Shown here: positions 15,119 through 29,242 of the stretch, piece after piece | Numbering within the stretch: position 1 is the stretch's first letter | How the letters are laid out: every line of letters begins with the position of its first letter | Notes under the pieces: generated by a model | The model's input: the letters and a program-made list of their open reading frames with translations, nothing else | The model's database searches: none | What the model was told of the DNA's origin: nothing | NCBI RefSeq assembly: GCF_900156625.1 | Contig: NZ_FTOB01000002.1 | Coordinates: 180,275 to 244,274 of the forward strand | Reading direction: 5' to 3' | Source: Zobellia uliginosa | GTDB lineage: Bacteria > Bacteroidota > Bacteroidia > Flavobacteriales > Flavobacteriaceae | DNA length: 64,000 nt | Program-made: the position numbers and the translations under genes

Positions 15119-15844
15119 TTACACACTTTGTTGTAATTCCAATTCAGGGATTTCGTCATAAGTTCGTCCGTTAAGTACTCGACCATTTTTCTTTTTATTT
15201 TTTCCGCCCCATTGTTTGAAGAAAAACGCAACATCTGCTTCTTCACATTGTTCTTGAATGTCAATAACCCAATCAGAATCCATTGGTCTTGGCGTATGTC
15301 CACTTTCTCCACCAACAATAACCCAATCAATTTTATCTAAATTAAGGTTTGGTAAAGGTCCGATTAAAGGTTCAAGAGATAAAAATTTCACTCTCGCATT
15401 TGTTTTTCTTAAAAAATCAATTCTATTTTCAACTTTCTGTTCTTCGACCGAAACACCCATCCAAATATTATGTGACCATTTTAATTCCTTGTGAACTTCC
15501 AGAAGTCTTTCCGCTCGTTTTGTCAAAACTTGAAAAACATGCCTTGGATTTTCATTCATTACATTAAAAACCTTCTTGATAAACTCTAAAGGAATGTCTT
15601 CATGAAATAAATCACTCATTGAATTCACAAAAACTATTTTGGCTTTTTTCCAAGTATATGGAACTTTCAATTCTTTTTCGTGAGTTCTGACTTTAAAATT
15701 GTCCTTGTATTTATCAACCCCCATTGCTTTTAAGCGTTTAGACATAATTTCTGCATAGCAAAATTTGCATCCTTGCGATACTTTGGAACAGCCTGTTGTA
15801 GGATTCCAAGTCATTTCTGTCCATTCTATGCTTGATTGTGCCAT
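15119..15844 (-). CDS. Phage Gp37/Gp68-like (DUF5131) three-Cys-motif protein
   Basis: This 241-residue protein matches the phage Gp37/Gp68 (DUF5131) family: it starts SSIEWTEMTWNPTTGC and has the SLEPLIGPL, VIVGGESGH and FFFKQWGG segments. The three cysteines C19, C26 and C29 (CX6CX2C) give the family its name and probably hold a metal or an iron-sulfur cluster, since the fold resembles radical-SAM proteins. No enzymatic reaction is established. The upstream tcmP gene ends one base before this ATG, so the two are translationally coupled. AT-rich composition differs visibly from the PUL genes, which suggests acquisition. Confidence 0.88.
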   Translation of the reverse strand: MAQSSIEWTEMTWNPTTGCSKVSQGCKFCYAEIMSKRLKAMGVDKYKDNFKVRTHEKELKVPYTWKKAKIVFVNSMSDLFHEDIPLEFIKKVFNVMNENPRHVFQVLTKRAERLLEVHKELKWSHNIWMGVSVEEQKVENRIDFLRKTNARVKFLSLEPLIGPLPNLNLDKIDWVIVGGESGHTPRPMDSDWVIDIQEQCEEADVAFFFKQWGGKNKKKNGRVLNGRTYDEIPELELQQSV

Positions 15845-16702
15845 TTAATTTGAGGTGTTATATTTTTCTATTATGTCGTTTGCAATCTTTCGAGCGGTTT
15901 TATTATTTGAAACCATATAAAAATGAAACATTATTGAGTTAGATTTATTTTTGAGAATATATGGATTTGTTACGAATGTAAATAATTCTTTAAGTCTTTT
16001 CTGATATAATTCAGCTGACCTTTCTATTGCTTTTTCTTCTTTGTTTGTAACAACTTCATCTCCAAATAAAGTAGGCACAATTGTTTGTGAGTAAAAATAA
16101 TCTAGGATTTCTTTTTTGGGCATTCCGAGAAAAGTCTCCAATCTCATTATCCACGCATCAGAAATTCGACCATCTTTTTTCAATAATCTATTAACACCCA
16201 TTCCAGTTGGAACTAATATCCAAGCATCAACTTTTAATTCTTGTAGAGCAATTAAAGATTTCCAATTCACTTGCATTCCACACGGGTCGATATAAGCTAA
16301 AACTCTATACTTTTTTCCTTTTTGAGTTTTAAGAAATTCTGACATAGATTGTATTTTCTCGTTACAATCAGTATTAACTACATTTATTGTTTTGTGGTTG
16401 TAGTTTTGCACCACTTTTTCTATTAATTCATCTGCTTTTTCGATTTCCTTTTCAACAAAATAGTATCTATCAAAAGGTCTTGGCTCATCAATATCTAAAA
16501 TTCGTTTCGTTGCACCAATTATTATTTTTTGATTTTCATCATTCCCTTTTTTTATAAATCCACTACCTGCAAATCCATCAAAGTAGAGTAGTTTCCAACC
16601 AAATCTATCTGCAAATTTGTCCATTATTGTCAGATACGCTTTCGCATATTCAACAAGTATTTCTATTTTGGCTTCAGTCCAATCTCCTCCGAATTTATTC
16701 AT
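15845..16702 (-). CDS. tcmP: Three-Cys-motif partner protein TcmP
   Basis: TcmP is the fixed partner of the Gp37/Gp68-like three-Cys protein. The 285-residue protein has the family's N-terminus (GGDWTEAKIEILVEYAKAYL). It also has two motifs like those of Rossmann methyltransferases: YFDGFAGSG (glycine-rich loop) and AYIDPCGM (DPPY-like position). A nucleic-acid-modifying role is inferred from those motifs; nothing is proven for the family as far as I know. It abuts its partner gene directly. A 130-base AT-rich block that is also found 5' of two other accessory genes lies just upstream. Confidence 0.88.
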   Translation of the reverse strand: MNKFGGDWTEAKIEILVEYAKAYLTIMDKFADRFGWKLLYFDGFAGSGFIKKGNDENQKIIIGATKRILDIDEPRPFDRYYFVEKEIEKADELIEKVVQNYNHKTINVVNTDCNEKIQSMSEFLKTQKGKKYRVLAYIDPCGMQVNWKSLIALQELKVDAWILVPTGMGVNRLLKKDGRISDAWIMRLETFLGMPKKEILDYFYSQTIVPTLFGDEVVTNKEEKAIERSAELYQKRLKELFTFVTNPYILKNKSNSIMFHFYMVSNNKTARKIANDIIEKYNTSN

Positions 16703-19546: not shown

Positions 19547-20302
19547 ATGCAAGAACGATATCAACGAAATAGGATATATATTGATGATAAAGAGCAAGAA
19601 ATTGTTAAAGATTATCCGATAATCCTGGCCGGAAGTGGAATAGGGAGTGTAATTGCCGAATGTGCCTTGCGTTTAGGGTTTGAGAATATCACCATTATAG
19701 ATGGCGACAAGGTAGAACGATCTAATTTGAATCGGCAAAACTATACCGAAGACGATATTTCTTCTTCGAAAGTAGAGGCTATAAAGTCCAGATTAAAGGC
19801 TATTAATAATGAAGCTAATATCAAGGTTTACAACAGTTTTATAACAGAAGCCAATGTAGAGGAATTTGTAAAGGGCCATAAAGTAGCCATTAATGCGCTA
19901 GATTTTACGTCGGATATTCCATTGCAATTTGATAAAGTTTGTCAAGAAAACAATATTCCGGTAATTCATCCGTACAATTTAGGGTGGGGCGGACTTGTTA
20001 CGGTAATTGCACCCAATAGTATAGGTTTATCTGTCATTGCAAAACCAGATGAGAAATTCAATGAGGTAAATATGGTCGAATACATGTCAAGTTATATGAG
20101 GTTCTGGGGAAACCCTCAAGATTGGATAGATGAGATCATAGAGAAATACAAAAGCGAAAAAGAAAGTCTGCCACCACCACAACTTTCAATTGCTTCTTGG
20201 AAAGTTGCCGCTATGTGCACCCATATTCTTTTTAATATTGCTACGGGAAAACCGGTCAAAAAATTTCCTGAATTTTATTTGTCGACCATATTAAATTCTT
20301 GA
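19547..20302 (+). CDS. ThiF/E1-like adenylating enzyme
   Basis: A 251-residue protein of the ThiF/MoeB/E1 superfamily, which adenylates the C-terminal carboxylate of a small protein or peptide with ATP. The nucleotide-binding loop is ILAGSGIGSVIAE, followed by ITIIDGDKVERSNLNRQ (Asp and Arg of the ATP site) and the helix with SSKVEAIKSRL. The paired Cys-x-x-Cys zinc sites of some relatives are absent. The C-terminal ~80 residues (with DWIDEIIEKYKSEKES) do not match ThiF/MoeB and may hold the substrate. MccB, which modifies microcin C7, is the best known peptide-directed member. It is separate from the downstream operon (convergent LuxR gene between), so membership in the peptide system is only inferred. 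Confidence 0.8.
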   Translation: MQERYQRNRIYIDDKEQEIVKDYPIILAGSGIGSVIAECALRLGFENITIIDGDKVERSNLNRQNYTEDDISSSKVEAIKSRLKAINNEANIKVYNSFITEANVEEFVKGHKVAINALDFTSDIPLQFDKVCQENNIPVIHPYNLGWGGLVTVIAPNSIGLSVIAKPDEKFNEVNMVEYMSSYMRFWGNPQDWIDEIIEKYKSEKESLPPPQLSIASWKVAAMCTHILFNIATGKPVKKFPEFYLSTILNS

Positions 20303-20339
20303 ATATAGGTAATCTTATATTTGCCCCGACCTCAAAACC

Positions 20340-21098
20340 TTAAATGAGCTTATTATTGGTGGCATACATGATAGCTTCCGATATGTTGGTCACTTCTAAT
20401 TTGTCGAATAACTTTCTTCTGTGAAATTTTACCGTATCGGGCGATACGTAAATTGATTCGGCTATCTCGTTTATAGTTAAACCTCTAGTCGACAATTGCA
20501 ATATTTCTTTTTCCCGGGATGAGAGCTTTATTTTTTCATCCGCTTTCCAGAAGTCACCCTCTAGGTTATACTTGAAAATTTTATGATTTCCCTTTTTATA
20601 AATTTTAATATTCCCCGCTTGTCGTTCGGCCGATAAGGATACAATACATACGGCTTTCCATATTTTGCCGTTTGCGGTCAAAAATATTGGGGTCAATTTT
20701 TGATTTATTAGAATGATTTTTCCTTCTTGGTTTTTTATGTGGAAGTCATATGAAATGGTATGTTCCTTGCGTTCTTCTAAAGGAATTCTGTCATAAAACT
20801 CGAAGCCCACCTTGTTGATTTTAATGAGTAAATCCAAATCGGACTTAACTACATACTTGAAGTAGAAAGCATATCCCATCTCCTTGATTTCTTCTGCCGT
20901 ATGGCCACAAAGGAACAAGGGATTGTCCGAGACGTATTCAAACCCTCTTTTTTGATAATCAATTACATATATACTTTTGTAGGTGGCTCTTGAGAAGGCT
21001 TTTATAGCTTCTAAATAATCTAAGGCTTGTCCTTGGTTTTCTTTTGGGATTTCACCAACTGAATTCTTAAAGGAAAAGAAATCTTTCATGTCAGTCAT
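20340..21098 (-). CDS. PAS-like sensor with LuxR-type DNA-binding domain
   Basis: A 252-residue one-protein regulator. Residues about 30-160 look like a PAS fold (VIDYQKRGFEYVSDNPLFLCG, KNQEGKIILINQKLTPIF). The last ~65 residues are a GerE/LuxR helix-turn-helix (LSSREKEILQLSTRGLTINEIAESIYVSPDTVKFHRRKLFDKL). There is no classical autoinducer-binding domain. This architecture is frequent in Flavobacteriia. It is divergent from the acyltransferase gene at 21261, and the shared 162-base intergenic region holds an imperfect palindrome. It is therefore the likely local regulator of the peptide operon. Met4 (21089) is an alternative start. Confidence 0.88.
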   Translation of the reverse strand: MTDMKDFFSFKNSVGEIPKENQGQALDYLEAIKAFSRATYKSIYVIDYQKRGFEYVSDNPLFLCGHTAEEIKEMGYAFYFKYVVKSDLDLLIKINKVGFEFYDRIPLEERKEHTISYDFHIKNQEGKIILINQKLTPIFLTANGKIWKAVCIVSLSAERQAGNIKIYKKGNHKIFKYNLEGDFWKADEKIKLSSREKEILQLSTRGLTINEIAESIYVSPDTVKFHRRKLFDKLEVTNISEAIMYATNNKLI

Positions 21099-21158
21099 AG
21101 AGTCGGTTTGGTGTAGGTTTTTGTGGTTATAAATATAGCTTTTTTCTTATCATTTTGA

Positions 21159-21180
21159 AAACTACACTTTTGTATAGTTT
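21159..21180. promoter_or_regulatory. Candidate LuxR-type operator (imperfect palindrome)
   Basis: AAACTACAC-TTTT-GTATAGTTT is a 22-base sequence with 9-base arms matching at 8 positions. It lies 81 bases before the acyltransferase start and 61 bases from the regulator start. A weaker copy of its left half (AAACTACCATTTTGTGTAAAC) follows at 21196-21216. The position between divergent genes suggests binding by the LuxR-type regulator; no experimental support. Confidence 0.5.
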
Positions 21181-21260
21181 CAGATAATCAACTAAAAACT
21201 ACCATTTTGTGTAAACAAACATTACTGAATGCCTAATAGATTTGGAAGTAAAACAAGAAT

Positions 21261-21944
21261 ATGATACATCCAAAGAACTATTTAGAAAGATTAGGGGCAG
21301 ATTGTCTATACGACTTGGCCAAGTTTGTGGTCAATGAAAATTTCAAGCACCACACCAGTAGCGTTTATCCAGAAAACTATACAAAGGAAATAGGATCTAT
21401 CTTGAAAGAAGAGAAAGATTATTTCAACAATGCCCAGATTTTTGTTTCTAAGGATGAGGACAATTCCATAATAGGATCGATCAGGGTATTACGGTGGAAT
21501 TATACGGACGTATTGCCTATACAGAAAATATTCGGCATTAATCCATTGCTCCTAAATGGCCATTATATTAAAAGTTCCATTTGGCATATTGGCAGGTTTG
21601 CCATAAAGAAAGGGGTAAATGATATTAATTTATTTAAGAGACTTATGGTCTGCGCCATAGCCCCTATATGTCAAGATAAAAATGCCGTAGTCTATGCAGA
21701 ATGTGACAGTAAACTTTTAAGGGTAATGTTGGCGTTGGGGATCAAGGCCGTGCCTGTAGAGAAACCTCTTAATTATCTAGGCTCTGAAACTATTCCGGTG
21801 AGTATGCGGTACAACGGCCTAATCGATTTCTATAATAAGAATAGGTCTTTGGTTCCTGTAGATTTTTTAGGTTCTACCACTGCTCAGCAACTACCTAAAA
21901 GGGTAGTTTCCCAACCTCTTCAGCATAACTACTCTTTAGTGTAG
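21261..21944 (+). CDS. FeeM/LuxI-like N-acyltransferase (GNAT fold)
   Basis: A 227-residue protein resembling the N-acyl amino acid synthase (FeeM) and autoinducer synthase group, GNAT-fold enzymes that transfer an acyl chain from acyl-ACP to an amino group. The supporting signature is SIIGSIRVLRWNYTDVLPIQ followed by WHIGRFAIKKGVND, which matches the family pattern of a strand with Arg, an LP turn, and an E/IsRFAV-type strand. A Leu-rich helix (RLMVCAIAPIC) comes next. The ~40-residue tail is low in complexity and may be flexible. Located directly upstream of two peptide precursor genes on the same strand. It could acylate the peptides, an amino acid, or make a signal for the adjacent LuxR protein. 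Confidence 0.65.
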   Translation: MIHPKNYLERLGADCLYDLAKFVVNENFKHHTSSVYPENYTKEIGSILKEEKDYFNNAQIFVSKDEDNSIIGSIRVLRWNYTDVLPIQKIFGINPLLLNGHYIKSSIWHIGRFAIKKGVNDINLFKRLMVCAIAPICQDKNAVVYAECDSKLLRVMLALGIKAVPVEKPLNYLGSETIPVSMRYNGLIDFYNKNRSLVPVDFLGSTTAQQLPKRVVSQPLQHNYSLV

Positions 21945-22094: not shown

Positions 22095-22244
22095 ATGAAA
22101 AATTCAAACCCAGAGAAATTTTTAGATACTCAGGAATTATCAGCTCTTGAGAATCAAACATTAAAAGGAGGTACTTCAATGATCGAATCGGTCGAAGAAG
22201 AAGACAAAAAGAAAAAAGAGAAAAAAGTAACCGTTGAAAAGTAA
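22095..22244 (+). CDS. Double-glycine precursor peptide 1
   Basis: A 49-residue peptide too short for usual ORF callers. Residues 1-26 form a leader ending in LSALENQTLKGG, the double-glycine motif cut by C39 peptidases (consensus LS..EL..I.GG). The predicted core is 23 residues, starting TSMIESVEEED and ending in a Lys/Glu-rich tail with KVTVEK. It has no Cys. The adjacent peptide 2 has exactly the same first 23 residues, although seven of those codons differ by silent changes. That shows the leader is under protein-level selection and is a real gene. A C39-type ABC exporter is encoded 2 kb downstream. Function (antibacterial or signal) unknown. Confidence 0.88.
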   Translation: MKNSNPEKFLDTQELSALENQTLKGGTSMIESVEEEDKKKKEKKVTVEK

Positions 22245-22249
22245 TAATT

Positions 22250-22402
22250 ATGAAAAATTCAAACCCAGAGAAATTTTTAGACACTCAAGAACTTTCGGCT
22301 CTTGAAAACCAAACATTGACAGGTGGTAGTTCTATGGTAGAATCACTTGAAGATGCAGGTAACAAAGACAAAGAAAAGAAAAAAGAAGTTGTTGTAAAGT
22401 AA
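22250..22402 (+). CDS. Double-glycine precursor peptide 2
   Basis: A 50-residue paralogue of peptide 1, starting 5 bases after its stop. Leader residues 1-23 are identical, then Thr replaces Lys24 and Gly-Gly follows at 25-26. The predicted 24-residue core starts SSMVESLEDAG and ends with a Lys-rich VVVK. Core residues shared with peptide 1 are [ST]SM[IV]ES[VL]E[DE], so the N-terminal third of the core is conserved and the middle diverges. It also lacks Cys. A perfect hairpin comes 4 bases after its stop codon and would let the two peptides be made in excess over the enzymes downstream. Confidence 0.88.
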   Translation: MKNSNPEKFLDTQELSALENQTLTGGSSMVESLEDAGNKDKEKKKEVVVK

Positions 22403-22406
22403 GTCT

Positions 22407-22440
22407 TAATAAGGTGTCGGTGTATGCCGACACCTTATTA
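22407..22440 (+). terminator. Hairpin attenuator between precursor peptides and enzymes
   Basis: The arms TAATAAGGTGTCGG (22407-22420) and CCGACACCTTATTA (22427-22440) form a perfect 14-bp stem with a 6-base loop. No long T run follows, so partial termination or mRNA-end protection of the peptide transcript is more likely than full termination. This is the usual arrangement in bacteriocin operons. Confidence 0.8.
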
Positions 22441-22464: not shown

Positions 22465-23772
22465 ATGATGGAAGATACTAAAAAAGCATTGACCAAAGAC
22501 TGGTGGCTATTATTTATAGAAGAAAATTTTTCTTTCACTGAGACTAAAGTATTTAAAGACGTTCTCTCTGAATCTTTGCAGGAAAATTTATATAAAGGAG
22601 TGAAAGAGATGTTGCAATCAAGAATCAACCGTCTTGATATTTCAAATGGTTTTAGACTATATCAAAAGGGAGAGGAAATTGGTGATTCCAAGGTCCGAAA
22701 CCTTATAAGGGAAAACAAATTAGGCAGCCAAGAATCAATTGAATCGTATTGCAAAAGGATATTTGGGGAAAATTATGGCATTATCACCAATTATGGTGAG
22801 CGTCATTCGGATATTTTAGCTGAAAACGTTTTAGAGGCGATACAACCTCTTTTTGATATTATTGGTATTCCTCCTTGGGGAGTGGAACTTACAACCTTTA
22901 TAGGTAATTATGGGTGGACTCCCTTGGGGATACATACGGACCAAAGAGGGGAAAATGTTTTGCATTTCCATCTAGGCCCTGGTAAAAAAACAATGTACAC
23001 TTGGAATGAAGATGTCTATAAAGAGGTAGGTAAGGGCGTTTCAAACAATAAAGATGTAGAGCCCTTGCTCGAATACGCCCAAAAATATGAGTTTGGCCGA
23101 GGTGATCTTTACTATATGCCTTGGAATAAGCACCATATAGGTTTTTCCGGCGACTTTTCTATAGGGGTTACATTATGGTTTAATAATCCGACTAAATGCT
23201 CTTTTTCAAAACTAATGATCGAGTCGATCAAAAACATGTTTTTAAAAGACGATATGAATATTATAGAAAGTCAATTGGATTACCTGAACAACGAACAAAC
23301 GTTTAACGACTTCATCGGCACTTTAAATATTTCTTCCAAAACATTAAACGAACCCTTAGTAGACTTTTTGCAGTATACCTATAAAGAATATAAAAAATGT
23401 CTGTTGAGTAATGGCGGTTGGCAAAATATTCCCTTAAGGCATCACAAGAAGGTAGAGAACACGAATCATTGTTTTCCAGAATTTGAATTCAAAAAAATTG
23501 TCGGTAGCAATGTCTTCAAAATTACACATGAGAAAGAGGAAGATCGCCTATTGGTTTATGTTAGGGGGGTACGGCTATCCTTTAAGTATTTTGAAGGCCT
23601 GGTAAAGATTATTGATATGGTCAATACCGGTAAGGTAATTGAAGTTCAAGATGTTATAGAAGAAATTGACGACTTGCCAAAAGATGTGGTGATTTATTTT
23701 TTAAAAACCTTGGTAAATAATAGAGGCCTTAAAATTCAAGAGGCCCCGTTAGAGGAAATTCAATTTCAATAG
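22465..23772 (+). CDS. JmjC/cupin-like Fe(II)/2-oxoglutarate oxygenase, probable peptide-tailoring enzyme
   Basis: A 435-residue protein whose middle part has the double-stranded beta-helix oxygenase signature. H157-x-D159 (GIHTDQRGENVLHFHLGPGK) supplies two iron ligands, and GDLYYMPWNKHHIG supplies the distal His (H223 or H224). The GD-LY-P-H pattern is that of JmjC/cupin-4 ribosomal oxygenases (RoxA/YcfD, Mina53), which hydroxylate protein side chains. A ~200-residue C-terminal part (with YVRGVRLSFKYFEGLVKIID) may be a winged-helix/substrate-binding region, as in ribosomal oxygenases. It lies between the precursors and the exporter, so hydroxylation of the peptides is inferred. Cores offer Lys, Asp, Glu, Asn and Thr as targets. 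Confidence 0.75.
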   Translation: MMEDTKKALTKDWWLLFIEENFSFTETKVFKDVLSESLQENLYKGVKEMLQSRINRLDISNGFRLYQKGEEIGDSKVRNLIRENKLGSQESIESYCKRIFGENYGIITNYGERHSDILAENVLEAIQPLFDIIGIPPWGVELTTFIGNYGWTPLGIHTDQRGENVLHFHLGPGKKTMYTWNEDVYKEVGKGVSNNKDVEPLLEYAQKYEFGRGDLYYMPWNKHHIGFSGDFSIGVTLWFNNPTKCSFSKLMIESIKNMFLKDDMNIIESQLDYLNNEQTFNDFIGTLNISSKTLNEPLVDFLQYTYKEYKKCLLSNGGWQNIPLRHHKKVENTNHCFPEFEFKKIVGSNVFKITHEKEEDRLLVYVRGVRLSFKYFEGLVKIIDMVNTGKVIEVQDVIEEIDDLPKDVVIYFLKTLVNNRGLKIQEAPLEEIQFQ

Positions 23773-23824
23773 GCCTTTAACCTTCGATTTGTTGAATACG
23801 TACTGTGAAACTAAATCTAATAAA

Positions 23825-24328
23825 ATGAATTGCATTGAATTATATGAAACGTATCGGATTAAAAAAAAGAAAGACTATAAATATGTGTTCCAGACAAACG
23901 AAGGTGTGATTTATGAATTTAGTTTTAATAGGTCCGGTATACATTATAACTCTTGCTCAACAAATAAAAATATTCTAGAGCTTACCTTGAAATGTAGCTC
24001 AGTTTGTCCTAAAAAGGATTATAGAACCTTGACAACAATTGTTCATTTTGTTAAGGAGTTCTTGATAGAATATGATGCATTTTATTTACAAACGCATAAT
24101 CAGATCGAACACAAAAATACAAGAACGAAAAAACGGCGAGGATTTTCTAGGTTGAAACTTTGGACACGCATTTCAAATCGATACTTTGAGCAGTGCGATT
24201 TCCTGATGAGTCCAAATCTAAATGATTCTTATACACAGGATATACCTTGTCTCTTAATAAAAAAAGAGGCCAAGCATTATCGACAAATAGTGAGCAATTT
24301 TCATAAGTATTGTAATACGGAATTTTAA
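23825..24328 (+). CDS. Small protein resembling DUF6169
   Basis: A 167-residue protein from the ATG at 23825 (MNCIELYETY); a longer start at 23789 exists but adds twelve residues that look unrelated. No signal peptide. It has the order of short segments I associate with DUF6169: an N-terminal beta part (YKYVFQTNEGVIYEFSF), a helix (LTTIVHFVKEFLIEYDAFYLQ), a basic stretch (RTKKRRGFSRLKLWTRI) and a late LLIKKEAKHYRQIV strand-helix. It has no assigned function. Its stop overlaps into the region immediately before the exporter ATG (adjacent, no gap). This tight coupling suggests it assists the exporter or acts on the precursor. Confidence 0.6.
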   Translation: MNCIELYETYRIKKKKDYKYVFQTNEGVIYEFSFNRSGIHYNSCSTNKNILELTLKCSSVCPKKDYRTLTTIVHFVKEFLIEYDAFYLQTHNQIEHKNTRTKKRRGFSRLKLWTRISNRYFEQCDFLMSPNLNDSYTQDIPCLLIKKEAKHYRQIVSNFHKYCNTEF

Positions 24329-26524
24329 ATGATAGGGTATAAAAACAGAATAAAACTTGTACGTCAGCACGATTTAATGGATTGTGGACCAGCTTCTTTG
24401 AGTATGGTGACCTATTTCTATGGCAATAAATTCCCATTGCATTACCTAAGGGAATTATGCCAAATCGGAAAGGATGGGGTTTCTATGTCGGGAATAATTC
24501 ATGCCGCTAAAAAAATAGGAATGGAAACGTATTCCACCCGGTTGAATTTAGATCTATTGGTTAAAAAATTTACCAAGCCTTGTATTCTATATTGGAATAA
24601 AAATCACTTTCTTGTATTGGAATCCATTAGTAATAAGGGAGGTAATGTTAATTTTCATATTGCAGATCCCGCTCATGGAAAAGTGGTCTTGTCAGAAAAA
24701 GATTTTAAAGAACCATGGCTGAAAGGGGGGCAATCTGGTGTTGCTTTATTCTTGTCTCCGACCCATGATTTTTTCTTAAAGAAAAACAATAGCAATGTAA
24801 AAAATCATTTCAAGACCATCGTAAATTTTTTAAAGCCTTATAAGAAAAAGATATTGGTTTTGTCTTTTTTGATACTGTTGGGTAGTGCATTCAGTGTGAC
24901 ATTGCCATTTTTAACAGAAGCGTTGATAGATTATGGGGTTACTCCAAAAAACCTGAATTATATAAGCCTTATTCTTCTTGCCCAGTTATTTGTCTTTATA
25001 GGGATTATGACCATTAATATCTTAAGAAATTGGTTTACCTTAATTATCGGCACAAAACTCAGTGTAGATATTGTTTATTCGTATCTAGACAAGGTACTTA
25101 AACTTCCATTGAGTTTTTTCGACACAAAAAACTCTGGCGATTTTAATCAGAGAATACAAGATAATATTAAAGTAGAAAGATTCCTCACTTCTGACAGTAT
25201 CTTAACGGTCTTTTCCGCCTTATTACTGTTAGTGTATTCGGGTATTCTATTTCATTATGGCACTTCGCTTTTCTTAACTTATATAGGTCTGACTCTCGTT
25301 TCGGTCTATTGGTCTTATTACTGGTTAAAAAAGAGAGAGGTAATAGACTATAAAATATTTCTTGCCAGATCCGAAAATCAAGAAGCTATTTATGAGTTTT
25401 ACAACGGCATTAGAGAAATGAAGCTCAACCAATATGAGAGTTATAAAAAAAATCAATGGGTTGAATTACAAAACAACTTGCTACAGGCGAATATCAAATC
25501 ATTAAAAATTGAGCAGTTTCAGTCTATCGGATTTACCTTTTTCAACCAGCTCAAAAATATTTTAGTCACATTTTTGGCAGCTAATTATGTGGTGAAAGAC
25601 ATTATGACCCTTGGGGCTTTGTTAAGTGTTTCATATATCATTGGTCAAATGAATTCGCCAGTACATCAATTATTATCGTTTTTCAGATCTCAACAAGATG
25701 CCTTTTTAAGTTTTAATAGATTAAGCGAGGTATATACCCAAGAAAATGAAGAAAAGGAATCCGATAAAAAACTTGACCCCGAAAAAACTCCTGTAGATAT
25801 TAAAATACAAAATGTCAATTTCAAATATAATGTACTTTCCCATAAATATATTCTTCAAGATATCGATCTAACCATACCACGAGGAAAGATTACGGCCATT
25901 GTAGGGCATAGTGGAAGTGGAAAAACAACGTTGATGAAATTACTATTGAAGTTTTTTCCTCCCTTATCGGGGAAAATCTTTTATGGTTTAGATGAAATAA
26001 ATGGATTGTCTTCGCAAAGTATTAGGGAAAATTCAGGAATAGTGATGCAAGATGGCTATATATTCAATGATACCATTGAAAGGAATATAGCACTGAAAGA
26101 TAAAATAGTCGATAAAGAAAAATTAGAAAAGGCACTTGGGGCGGTTAATCTGTTAGGCTTCGTCAATTCATTGGCCCTAAAGGAACATACCAAAATAGGT
26201 TCGGGAGGGAATGATCTTTCGGGCGGTCAAAAACAAAGGATACTAATTGCACGGGCAATTTATAAAAATCCTAAATATATATTCTTGGATGAAGCCACTT
26301 CAGCTTTAGATGCTACCAATGAAAAAGAAGTACATAATAATTTGCAGAAGCTGTTTAAGGATAAAACGGTGGTTATAATAGCACATCGTTTAAGCACTGT
26401 TCAAAACGCCGATCAGATTATTGTTTTATCAGAAGGAAAAATGGTAGAACAAGGGACGCATACAGAATTAATAGACAAAAAAGAATTTTATTACACACTG
26501 GTTAAAGATCAATTAAATATATAA
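24329..26524 (+). CDS. C39-peptidase-containing ABC exporter (PCAT)
   Basis: A 731-residue peptidase-containing ABC transporter that removes double-glycine leaders and exports the core peptide. The C39 domain (1-130) has Q13, catalytic C19 in LMDCGPAS, H93 in NKNHFLVL and D113 in IADPAHG. A six-helix membrane domain covers about 160-440. The ATPase has Walker A GHSGSGKTT (526-534), the signature LSGGQ (630-634), and Walker B FLDEATSALD. All catalytic residues are present. It starts right after the preceding stop. In Gram-negative bacteria such exporters normally work with an HlyD-type adaptor, and none is encoded here. The partner outer-membrane gene is instead of TonB-receptor type. Confidence 0.95.
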   Translation: MIGYKNRIKLVRQHDLMDCGPASLSMVTYFYGNKFPLHYLRELCQIGKDGVSMSGIIHAAKKIGMETYSTRLNLDLLVKKFTKPCILYWNKNHFLVLESISNKGGNVNFHIADPAHGKVVLSEKDFKEPWLKGGQSGVALFLSPTHDFFLKKNNSNVKNHFKTIVNFLKPYKKKILVLSFLILLGSAFSVTLPFLTEALIDYGVTPKNLNYISLILLAQLFVFIGIMTINILRNWFTLIIGTKLSVDIVYSYLDKVLKLPLSFFDTKNSGDFNQRIQDNIKVERFLTSDSILTVFSALLLLVYSGILFHYGTSLFLTYIGLTLVSVYWSYYWLKKREVIDYKIFLARSENQEAIYEFYNGIREMKLNQYESYKKNQWVELQNNLLQANIKSLKIEQFQSIGFTFFNQLKNILVTFLAANYVVKDIMTLGALLSVSYIIGQMNSPVHQLLSFFRSQQDAFLSFNRLSEVYTQENEEKESDKKLDPEKTPVDIKIQNVNFKYNVLSHKYILQDIDLTIPRGKITAIVGHSGSGKTTLMKLLLKFFPPLSGKIFYGLDEINGLSSQSIRENSGIVMQDGYIFNDTIERNIALKDKIVDKEKLEKALGAVNLLGFVNSLALKEHTKIGSGGNDLSGGQKQRILIARAIYKNPKYIFLDEATSALDATNEKEVHNNLQKLFKDKTVVIIAHRLSTVQNADQIIVLSEGKMVEQGTHTELIDKKEFYYTLVKDQLNI

Positions 26525-26529
26525 GAATA

Positions 26530-26862
26530 ATGGGATTTAAAACATTGACAATCATTTTATTAGTTTTAGTTTTTTTGAGTTGTAGTACAACTAACCCTGT
26601 CTCATCGTCTAAGTATGAAACAGTATTCTGTACAAGCATAGACAATAGTGAGTATGCTTCGATCTATCGGATTCTTAGAGATAATTTTAATGATTTTCCA
26701 AAGAAAAGGGGTAAGAAAGTTACCTATGTAAAAAACAATATAGATTATTCGTTTCGAATAAGCTTGAAAAATAAACGCTTTAAAATGAAATATAGTAGCA
26801 ATAAGGGATACAATGACCAAATAAGCGCAATGAAGTCGAAGATTGAAAATATGGTGAAGTAA
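26530..26862 (+). CDS. Small lipoprotein of the peptide operon
   Basis: A 110-residue protein with a lipoprotein signal (VLVFLSCSTTN, Cys ~18). The remainder has alternating polar and hydrophobic segments and a Lys-rich middle (FPKKRGKKVTYVKNN). No family was recognised. It starts 5 bases after the exporter stop and ends 10 bases before the TonB-type receptor, so it belongs to the same transcript. An immunity or receptor-accessory role is possible, given that lipoproteins are frequent immunity factors for exported peptides, but nothing in the sequence proves it. Confidence 0.75.
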   Translation: MGFKTLTIILLVLVFLSCSTTNPVSSSKYETVFCTSIDNSEYASIYRILRDNFNDFPKKRGKKVTYVKNNIDYSFRISLKNKRFKMKYSSNKGYNDQISAMKSKIENMVK

Positions 26863-26872
26863 GGAGAAATTT

Positions 26873-29242
26873 ATGAGAATTAGTATAATACTTTGTGTTT
26901 TGTTGCATACGGGATTGTTATATTCCCAAAATAGCATTTTAGGTAAGGTTATAGATCAAACGGGAGAGCCATTACCCTATGCCAACATCATCTTATATCA
27001 TAATGGAAATACTGATGAATTGGTAACGGGTACGGTAAGTGATGACAAAGGGGAATATGTCTTTTTAGATGTTTCAAATGGAACTTATCTGTTGGAGGTT
27101 TCTGTCCTAGGGTTTAAAACCGAAAAATCAAATCCCTTTACACTTTCCGATAAAAACCAAGATGTAAGGTTTAATTTTACTTTAAAGGAGGAGGCCCAAG
27201 CCTTGAACGAGGTAGTCGTGAAAAGCAATCGCCCGGTAATCCGACAAACCGCGGAAAAATTGATAGTTGATTTAGAGCAATCCGAAATGGTAAGTTCCAA
27301 CTTACAGGATGTCATGAAAAAAGTACCAGGGATTATCGTTACCAATGGCAACATTACTTATGGAGGGCAACAAGGCGTGACCATTTTGATCAATGGCAAA
27401 ACGACCGAGTATATGGATATTTCATCCTTGTTGCGCGACCTCCCCGCAGATAATATCGCAAAGGTTGAATTGGTACAACAACCTGGTGCCGAGTTTGACG
27501 CAGAGGGATCAGGTCCATTGATCAATATCATCCTTAAAAAAAATGTAAGGCTGGGCACGAATGGAAACCTTAAACTGTATTCGGGATATGACAACCGACC
27601 TGAGTATGGGGTGAGTGGTTCGATTGCCAGTTATAAGAACAAGATCAATTGGCAATTAGGTGGCGGTTATAGAAAATCGGCGTGGAGAGAAGACCTCTTT
27701 ATAACCAGAAGGATCAATGGGGAGGTTTATGATCAATCGACCATTTCACCATACAATCCAAAAACGTATAGATTCAATGGGGGATTGGACTATTACATAA
27801 ATGAGCATCACACCATAGGGTTTGGAACACGGTTTATTCATACCGATTCCGATAGGATTGCATCTAACAGTACAGAAATCATTGAAGACTCGTCATCGGA
27901 AACCTTGCTCACTGAAAATAGCTTTGACCGTAATAGGAAAACCTATAACATAAACCCGTACTATAAGTTCGAAGATGAGCAAAACAAGTTCATTCTAGAT
28001 TTTGATTATGTTGATTATAATAACGATAATGTTAATGATTTATATCAGCTCGGGCAGAGTGAGATATCATACGACGACCAACGGTATTTTCAGAATGGAA
28101 AATATCGGATACTGACTTATAAGGGAGACTATAAACGTACTTTTGGGGAAGGTTCCAATTGGATGTTCGGAACTAAATATTCAAGGGTTTCCACTGATAG
28201 TGACTTGAACTCTTTTTTCCGGAACACTGATGGTAATTTCATTTTGGATGCTGATCAAAGCAATGGTTTTTTAGTGGATGAAGATATCTTGGCCATATAT
28301 TCCAAGTTGGTAAAAAAATGGGAAAAATGGTCGTTTTCCGGTGGGTTGCGATGGGAAAACAGTAATACGAAGGGAACATCTACAAACCCCAATGAGGTAA
28401 GAAGTAGGCGAATTTCAAAATTATTTCCTAGTGCCAGTATCGATAGAAAAATCAATGACAAATTGGGGGCTAACCTGTCGTATAGCTATCGAATTTTAAG
28501 GCCTTCCTATAATTCCCTAAATGCATTTGTATATTATTACGACCCCTATACCTTTGAGCAGGGAAACCCGAATTTAAAACCTGAATTCACCAATAGTTTT
28601 CAATTTAATTTGACTTATGCCAATCAACCTTTTTTTAGTATAGCATATAAAAATACAGAGGATGCCTTGTTCGAAATTATATCGCAGAACGATGTCACGG
28701 CCCAAACCTCTCGGTCGGTAATCAACCTTGCTAAAAGGGAGAATTGGAGCTTTAGGGGTTTTGCTCCGGTCGACTTTCTTCATGGCTTGGACGGTTATGC
28801 CGGAATTATCGTAAACTATAATAAATATGCTTCGGAGAGTTTGACCCCAAAACTCGATTTGGATAAGTGGAGTTTTACGTGGTATACAAACCTGGAGTAT
28901 AGCCTGCCTTGGGATATCAATTCAGAATTGACGGGATACTATACCACTGGGGGACTACAAGGGCAAATAGAACACGATTGGTTAGCGGGACTCAGTTTTG
29001 CCCTCGGTAAAAAGTTTATGGATGACAAGCTTAAAATAAATTTGGGAATTGAAGAGATTTTGAATCGAAAATTTATAGGTAGTATTAACTATGATAATAT
29101 TGATGCCGATATTATAAGTGATTGGTCCCGTCAAAATGTCTATTTTCAGTTGACATACAATTTTGGTTCTAATTTTAATAAAGAAAAGGCCGAAAGGAAT
29201 CCTTCCGAAGAGGAGCAAGACCGAATAAAGGATAATAATTGA
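26873..29242 (+). CDS. TonB-type outer-membrane receptor (OMP beta-barrel 3 family) of the peptide operon
   Basis: A 789-residue outer-membrane protein with a signal peptide (cleavage near LLYSQ). A carboxypeptidase-regulatory-like domain (SILGKVIDQTGEPLPYANI) and a plug (TAEKLIVDLEQSEMV, SNLQDVMKKVPGI, INGKTTEYM) come first, followed by a large barrel. The barrel has the RPSYNSLN / FEQGNPNLKPEFTN motif of the Bacteroidota OMP_b-brl_3 group. The C-terminus is unusual: the last strand (YFQLTYNFGSNFN) is followed by a charged ~20-residue tail. It is the last gene of the operon, followed by a terminator. It could export or take back the mature peptide, or be its target; direction of transport is not decided by sequence. 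Confidence 0.9.
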   Translation: MRISIILCVLLHTGLLYSQNSILGKVIDQTGEPLPYANIILYHNGNTDELVTGTVSDDKGEYVFLDVSNGTYLLEVSVLGFKTEKSNPFTLSDKNQDVRFNFTLKEEAQALNEVVVKSNRPVIRQTAEKLIVDLEQSEMVSSNLQDVMKKVPGIIVTNGNITYGGQQGVTILINGKTTEYMDISSLLRDLPADNIAKVELVQQPGAEFDAEGSGPLINIILKKNVRLGTNGNLKLYSGYDNRPEYGVSGSIASYKNKINWQLGGGYRKSAWREDLFITRRINGEVYDQSTISPYNPKTYRFNGGLDYYINEHHTIGFGTRFIHTDSDRIASNSTEIIEDSSSETLLTENSFDRNRKTYNINPYYKFEDEQNKFILDFDYVDYNNDNVNDLYQLGQSEISYDDQRYFQNGKYRILTYKGDYKRTFGEGSNWMFGTKYSRVSTDSDLNSFFRNTDGNFILDADQSNGFLVDEDILAIYSKLVKKWEKWSFSGGLRWENSNTKGTSTNPNEVRSRRISKLFPSASIDRKINDKLGANLSYSYRILRPSYNSLNAFVYYYDPYTFEQGNPNLKPEFTNSFQFNLTYANQPFFSIAYKNTEDALFEIISQNDVTAQTSRSVINLAKRENWSFRGFAPVDFLHGLDGYAGIIVNYNKYASESLTPKLDLDKWSFTWYTNLEYSLPWDINSELTGYYTTGGLQGQIEHDWLAGLSFALGKKFMDDKLKINLGIEEILNRKFIGSINYDNIDADIISDWSRQNVYFQLTYNFGSNFNKEKAERNPSEEEQDRIKDNN

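Follow-up and report, generated by a model that had tools for sequence, protein, structure and literature searches.

A JmjC-type oxygenase associated with double-glycine precursor peptides in Zobellia uliginosa and predicted to tailor their cores

The 64,000-nucleotide stretch of the Zobellia uliginosa genome analyzed here (contig NZ_FTOB01000002.1, positions 180,275 to 244,274 of the forward strand; hereafter, the window) carries a tight operon on the + strand, in which precursor peptide genes are followed by genes for a JmjC_2-like, ribosomal-oxygenase-type Fe(II)/2-oxoglutarate (2OG) oxygenase, an unknown open reading frame (ORF), a C39 exporter, a small lipoprotein and an outer membrane barrel. 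The oxygenase gene (22465..23772, +) is an uninterrupted reading frame encoding 435 aa. Two tandem double-glycine (GG) precursors lie directly upstream, one of 49 aa (22095..22244, +; leader MKNSNPEKFLDTQELSALENQTLKGG, core TSMIESVEEEDKKKKEKKVTVEK), whose leader is conserved in precursors of three loci, and one of 50 aa (22250..22402, +; leader MKNSNPEKFLDTQELSALENQTLTGG, core SSMVESLEDAGNKDKEKKKEVVVK). Downstream, past a single 179-codon ORF, is the gene for a C39 peptidase-containing ABC exporter (24329..26524, +; PF03412, E 2.6e-31; PF00664; PF00005), which is predicted to cut after the GG and export the product. A preliminary description, made from the sequence alone, had placed the oxygenase between precursors and exporter and proposed that it hydroxylates the peptides; the gene order agrees with that placement.

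The oxygenase contains a complete HxD..H iron site composed of H157, D159 and H224. The first two ligands fall within GIHTD at residues 155-159, and the third closes the motif GDLYYMPWNKHH at residues 213-224, at the positions given in the preliminary description, which had left the distal ligand as the pair H223/H224. Alignment of the family settled this choice: H157 and H224 are invariant in all 19 homologues, whereas position 223 is variable (Y, F or other), so the distal ligand is H224. D159 is retained in each of the 15 precursor-associated members and is replaced by Glu in four stand-alone homologues.

Searches of Pfam and NCBIfam with the oxygenase returned no match up to E=1, nor was any found among PDB sequences with phmmer or with profiles. 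JmjC_2 (PF08007) was matched weakly by 15 of the 19 family members, and its gathering score was exceeded by distant homologues from Nostoc, Streptomyces and Pantoea. Aligning the family profile with E. coli RoxA/YcfD by hhalign (E 9e-5) paired H157 with H125, D159 with D127, H224 with H187 and K175 with R140; a 19-row profile covered only the distal half of the site, and a 15-row profile including distant homologues covered the whole. R140 of YcfD contacts 2OG; by sequence comparison, K175 is a probable 2OG contact. For the full-length AlphaFold2 model, the top 30 Foldseek matches in the PDB were all ribosomal oxygenases of the NO66, MINA53 and YcfD types, with E-values between 6e-9 and 7e-7. 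Foldseek, hhalign and the Pfam intermediates therefore agree on the ribosomal-oxygenase-type JmjC fold that had been proposed. The window oxygenase is thus a JmjC_2 relative by fold and site that lies below the PF08007 gathering threshold and is not a formal Pfam member.

The C-terminal region of the enzyme (residues 338-435; 23476..23769, +) is a winged-helix domain resembling the recognition elements (RREs) of ribosomally synthesized and post-translationally modified peptides (RiPPs), as judged by Foldseek and VIA. When this domain was folded alone, its best Foldseek matches were RREs plus the MINA53 winged helix, the RREs being those of ThcOx, TigE, TbiB1 with its leader, a cyanobactin heterocyclase, McbB, PqqD, PbtF and MccB. 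Against these elements, Foldseek probabilities were mostly 0.9-1.0 and VIA Z scores 7-9; against MINA53 residues 359-465, the VIA Z score was 8.4-8.6, with a root-mean-square deviation of 2.4 over 80 residues. Human MINA53 and NO66 have winged helices that score alongside the RREs against this domain model. Fusions of RRE-like folds to PF08007 have been noted in fish and algae, and their bacterial homologues occur in RiPP-like contexts (PMC12710340), which fits the domain arrangement of the window oxygenase; those proteins are mentioned in passing, with no description of precursor, exporter or core, and the window protein differs from them in scoring below PF08007. An RRE-like domain by itself would account for the genomic linkage if the protein served as a leader-binding chaperone or export adaptor with dispensable oxygenase activity. 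We regard this as quite improbable, given that every one of the 15 members of the clade described below retains H157, D159 and H224, although overall identity between its subgroups is only about 30%.

Relatives of the oxygenase are found in Flavobacteriales genomes, with more distant ones on plasmids of Nostoc, Streptomyces and Pantoea; none was present in the viral contigs searched. In the tree, an HxD clade of 15 intact proteins from 13 Flavobacteriales loci, including that of the window, lies on one side of a branch supported 100/99. A C39 exporter (~50% identical) adjoins the oxygenase in every one of these 13 loci, and recognisable GG precursors stand beside it in 12, the precursor region of the remaining locus (L018; L numbers denote loci) being masked. 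A second group consists of four stand-alone HxE relatives without exporter or precursors (L017, L020, L040, L041), and a third of HxG proteins from Nostoc and Streptomyces. Eight other genomes of the genus lack the oxygenase, which occurs in about 1-3% of the genomes sampled from the order and the family. Its fold and iron site are those of the ribosomal oxygenases, as would be expected of a ribosomal or other housekeeping protein hydroxylase, that is, a RoxA orthologue located in the operon by chance. However, its similarity to YcfD is at the profile level only, and the protein is rare and accessory, and throughout the clade it is linked with GG precursors and a C39 exporter. We rejected the RoxA identity on the basis of this distribution, and a chance location of a housekeeping enzyme is extremely unlikely.

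Across the 25 precursors collected from 13 loci, one of which is a degraded plasmid copy, the leaders share the type FLxxxxLSxLExxxxxGG and end in GG. Leaders are conserved, most of their codon changes being synonymous (eight, against one non-synonymous, between the two window precursors), whereas the cores are divergent. K/E-rich cores occur in the window, L005 (one core being TTKCKCKCKCKEE) and L006; Gln runs of 7-18 in L015, L016, L019, L035 and L049; V/Q/R cores in L036-L038; VKET repeats in L039; and the sequence HHHDGRHHHD in L034. Replication slippage was considered as an artefactual origin of the poly-Q cores and rejected, since CAA and CAG codons are mixed in each, indicating that the cores are kept repetitive at the protein level. 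Two of these loci depart from the usual layout: L034:7905-11815 carries three tandem family oxygenases with a single His-rich precursor (GSHHHDGRHHHDTNCISAIK), and L049:7080-11523, on the Bergeyella porcorum plasmid pQD2021, has a poly-Q precursor beside an oxygenase and exporter split into several frames by decay or sequencing error.

The view that the neighbouring precursors are the substrates is strongly supported by this context, namely the exporter and precursors that accompany a single clade, and by the RRE-like domain. The more specific suggestion that Lys, Asp and Glu are the residues modified is possible for the window but does not extend to the relatives with poly-Gln, Val/Gln/Arg and His cores. 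It could hold across the family only if a minor residue of most cores, such as Asp (present in 23 of 25), were the common target.

A strong stem-loop occupies the interval between the precursors and the oxygenase (22407..22440, +; RNA fold -23 kcal/mol, z -6.8) and gives a terminator-like scan match. Equivalent hairpins occur at the same position in L036 (z -6.7) and L038 (z -6.2). The window element is likely an attenuator, a terminator or a processing site by which a surplus of precursor transcript is maintained, and the recurrence of the hairpin is consistent with an excess of precursor over enzyme.

Taken as a whole, these observations make it probable that the oxygenase is a leader-guided RiPP-tailoring Fe(II)/2OG hydroxylase that acts on the neighbouring precursors before GG cleavage and export. 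The RRE-like winged helix would bind the conserved double-glycine leader, and the JmjC double-stranded beta-helix, using Fe(II) held by H157, D159 and H224 together with 2OG and O2, would oxidise side chains of the repetitive core, most simply by hydroxylation. The C39 domain of the exporter would next cleave after the GG and the product would be secreted, with the outer membrane barrel and the small periplasmic protein possibly serving export, uptake or immunity. The computation establishes the fold, the complete iron site, the linkage of the whole clade to GG precursors and a C39 exporter, and the RRE-like fold; leader binding by the C-terminal domain, hydroxylation as opposed to another oxidation, the residue modified and the biological role are what we infer from this arrangement. 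Several points weigh against it. The full-length AlphaFold2 model, built from a three-sequence alignment, is of low confidence (pLDDT 60, pTM 0.45). Foldseek E-values for the C-terminal domain are weak (0.003 or worse), although the consistency of the RRE match list for this predicted domain is striking nonetheless. The RRE-like winged-helix fold is also shared by ribosomal oxygenases, whose protein substrates have no leader. Finally, no obvious single residue is common to the cores, so that a common reaction is not demonstrated.

The chemistry could also differ from simple hydroxylation, with the enzyme acting on the precursors through ferryl desaturation, cross-linking or backbone cleavage. 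Backbone cleavage is known for Fe/2OG enzymes that act on RiPPs but have a different (HEXXH) fold (PMC12636437), and the three tandem oxygenase copies for one His-rich precursor in one genome suggest several reaction steps. On the other hand, BipG and PbsQ, the JmjC RiPP enzymes that have been characterised, are hydroxylases, as are the fold neighbours YcfD, MINA53 and NO66, and the intact HxD carboxylate argues against halogenation. Such alternative chemistry accordingly appears unlikely. A more far-reaching extension of the leader-guided hydroxylase is a new RiPP class in which the JmjC oxygenase iterates along homopolymeric cores (poly-Gln, Lys/Glu, Val/Gln, His), yielding secreted low-complexity peptides that carry many hydroxyl groups, while the residue that the enzyme prefers co-evolves with the repeat; we offer this tentatively, as a possibility that we do not expect to hold in full.

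The remaining operon genes are less readily assigned. The conserved protein encoded by the 179-codon ORF (23789..24328, +) occurs only in the subgroup of the window and matched nothing in Pfam or NCBIfam; its homologues in L005 and L006 are 167 aa long, and the true start is probably the ATG near 23825. The small lipoprotein-like periplasmic protein (26530..26862, +) had no family match in the Pfam/NCBIfam scan and shows weak similarity to poly-Q cluster proteins, in which relatives with 18-44% identity are encoded between the precursor and the oxygenase. The last gene (26873..29242, +) encodes an OMP_b-brl_3/TonB-receptor-like outer membrane barrel (PF14905, E 3e-84), a frequent partner of the cluster with similar genes in L006, L015, L016, L018, L019, L034 and L039.

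Upstream of the precursors lies a block comprising a ThiF-like adenylyltransferase of a kind that occurs with other types of biosynthetic gene cluster (19547..20302, +; PF00899, E 3.8e-33), a divergent PAS-LuxR (GerE) regulator (20340..21098, -; PF00196, E 9e-17) and a FeeM/LuxI-like acyltransferase of the GNAT type (21261..21944, +; FeeM E 0.001 and Autoind_synth E 0.01, neither reaching the gathering score). The adjacency of this GNAT to the operon and the Lys-rich cores of the window would suit a selidamide-like lipidated-peptide pathway, in which the acyltransferase acylates core lysines and the oxygenase merely prepares the site. However, the block (~50-75% identical) also precedes NHLP-leader, nonribosomal peptide synthetase-type and CCGG-peptide clusters that have no family oxygenase, and is absent from the poly-Q clusters, and so looks like a separate regulatory cassette. 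The GNAT was therefore rejected as the core lysine acylase, and the lipidated-peptide pathway is very unlikely; the ThiF-like protein is probably not a tailoring enzyme either. The same cassette was seen in Flavobacteriaceae in the window (19547-21944) and in L054, L055, L056, L057 and L058, and could be an acyl-signal module, not described before, that regulates secondary metabolism. Downstream of it in L057 (9609-10151), a pair of almost identical peptides of 73 aa that share a CCGGxxCCTI motif, possible RiPP precursors, adjoin a lipid-A-acyltransferase-like protein. Elsewhere in the window, the product of 15119-16702 (-) shows a weak relationship to radical SAM mobile pair protein A and is paired with a TcmP three-Cys-motif partner protein (TIGR04474).

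Two observations concern the relatives outside the precursor-associated clade. An Asp/Asn beta-hydroxylase (PF05118) is encoded near the stand-alone HxE relative in L020 and also beside a damaged copy in L021. The HxG homologues on Nostoc/Streptomyces plasmids (L050:7947-9227, L051:7947-9230, L052:5962-7284), adjoined in L050 and L052 by a DUF3865 gene identified with Pfam, may be JmjC-fold halogenases, by analogy with the HxG Fe/2OG halogenase BesD and its diiron partner BesC.

Among known systems, BipG (PMC12707348) and PbsQ (PMC12257519) have been found experimentally to be JmjC enzymes that hydroxylate ornithine in a RiPP core. These biphenomycin-type enzymes, with BpmG (PMC12257519), resemble the window oxygenase as JmjC/cupin Fe(II)/2OG enzymes in a RiPP cluster in which a core side chain is modified, as predicted for the window. 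They are set apart from the window system, by description, by an FRF-type core acted on after arginase and by a TldD-type protease, and reports on them mention neither a GG leader nor a C39 exporter or homopolymeric core; conversely, no operon gene in the window has an arginase family match and no core has an FRF motif. RoxA/YcfD, MINA53 and NO66 (JmjC_2, PF08007) share with the window oxygenase the fold, the HxD..H ligands, the basic residue at the 2OG site and the C-terminal winged helix, but act on ribosomal proteins, whereas the window family has an accessory distribution and is associated with secreted peptides. With other double-glycine peptides exported by C39 peptidase-containing transporters (PCATs), the operon shares the GG leader and the peptidase-exporter, and differs in having a JmjC oxygenase as its tailoring enzyme and homopolymeric or low-complexity cores. 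The earlier remark that such an enzyme is rarely, if ever, described stands for the double-glycine/C39 setting, of which, as of poly-Q RiPPs, we found no description in the literature searched, most subscription journals lying outside it; it does not stand for JmjC RiPP hydroxylases in general. Since these are already known, the novelty lies in the GG/C39 architecture and the homopolymeric cores. We know of no other RiPP cores like the bacterial poly-glutamine and poly-Lys/Glu peptides.

If the proposed function is correct, these operons would represent a RiPP family whose repetitive cores are modified by a fold familiar mainly from enzymes that modify ribosomes and histones. The oxygenase would be a JmjC enzyme that is directed at peptides and comes with a portable leader tag, and its relatives may include a glutamine-directed one. 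The comparison also places the winged helix of human MINA53 and NO66 and the leader-binding domains of RiPP enzymes in one fold group, a testable evolutionary link.
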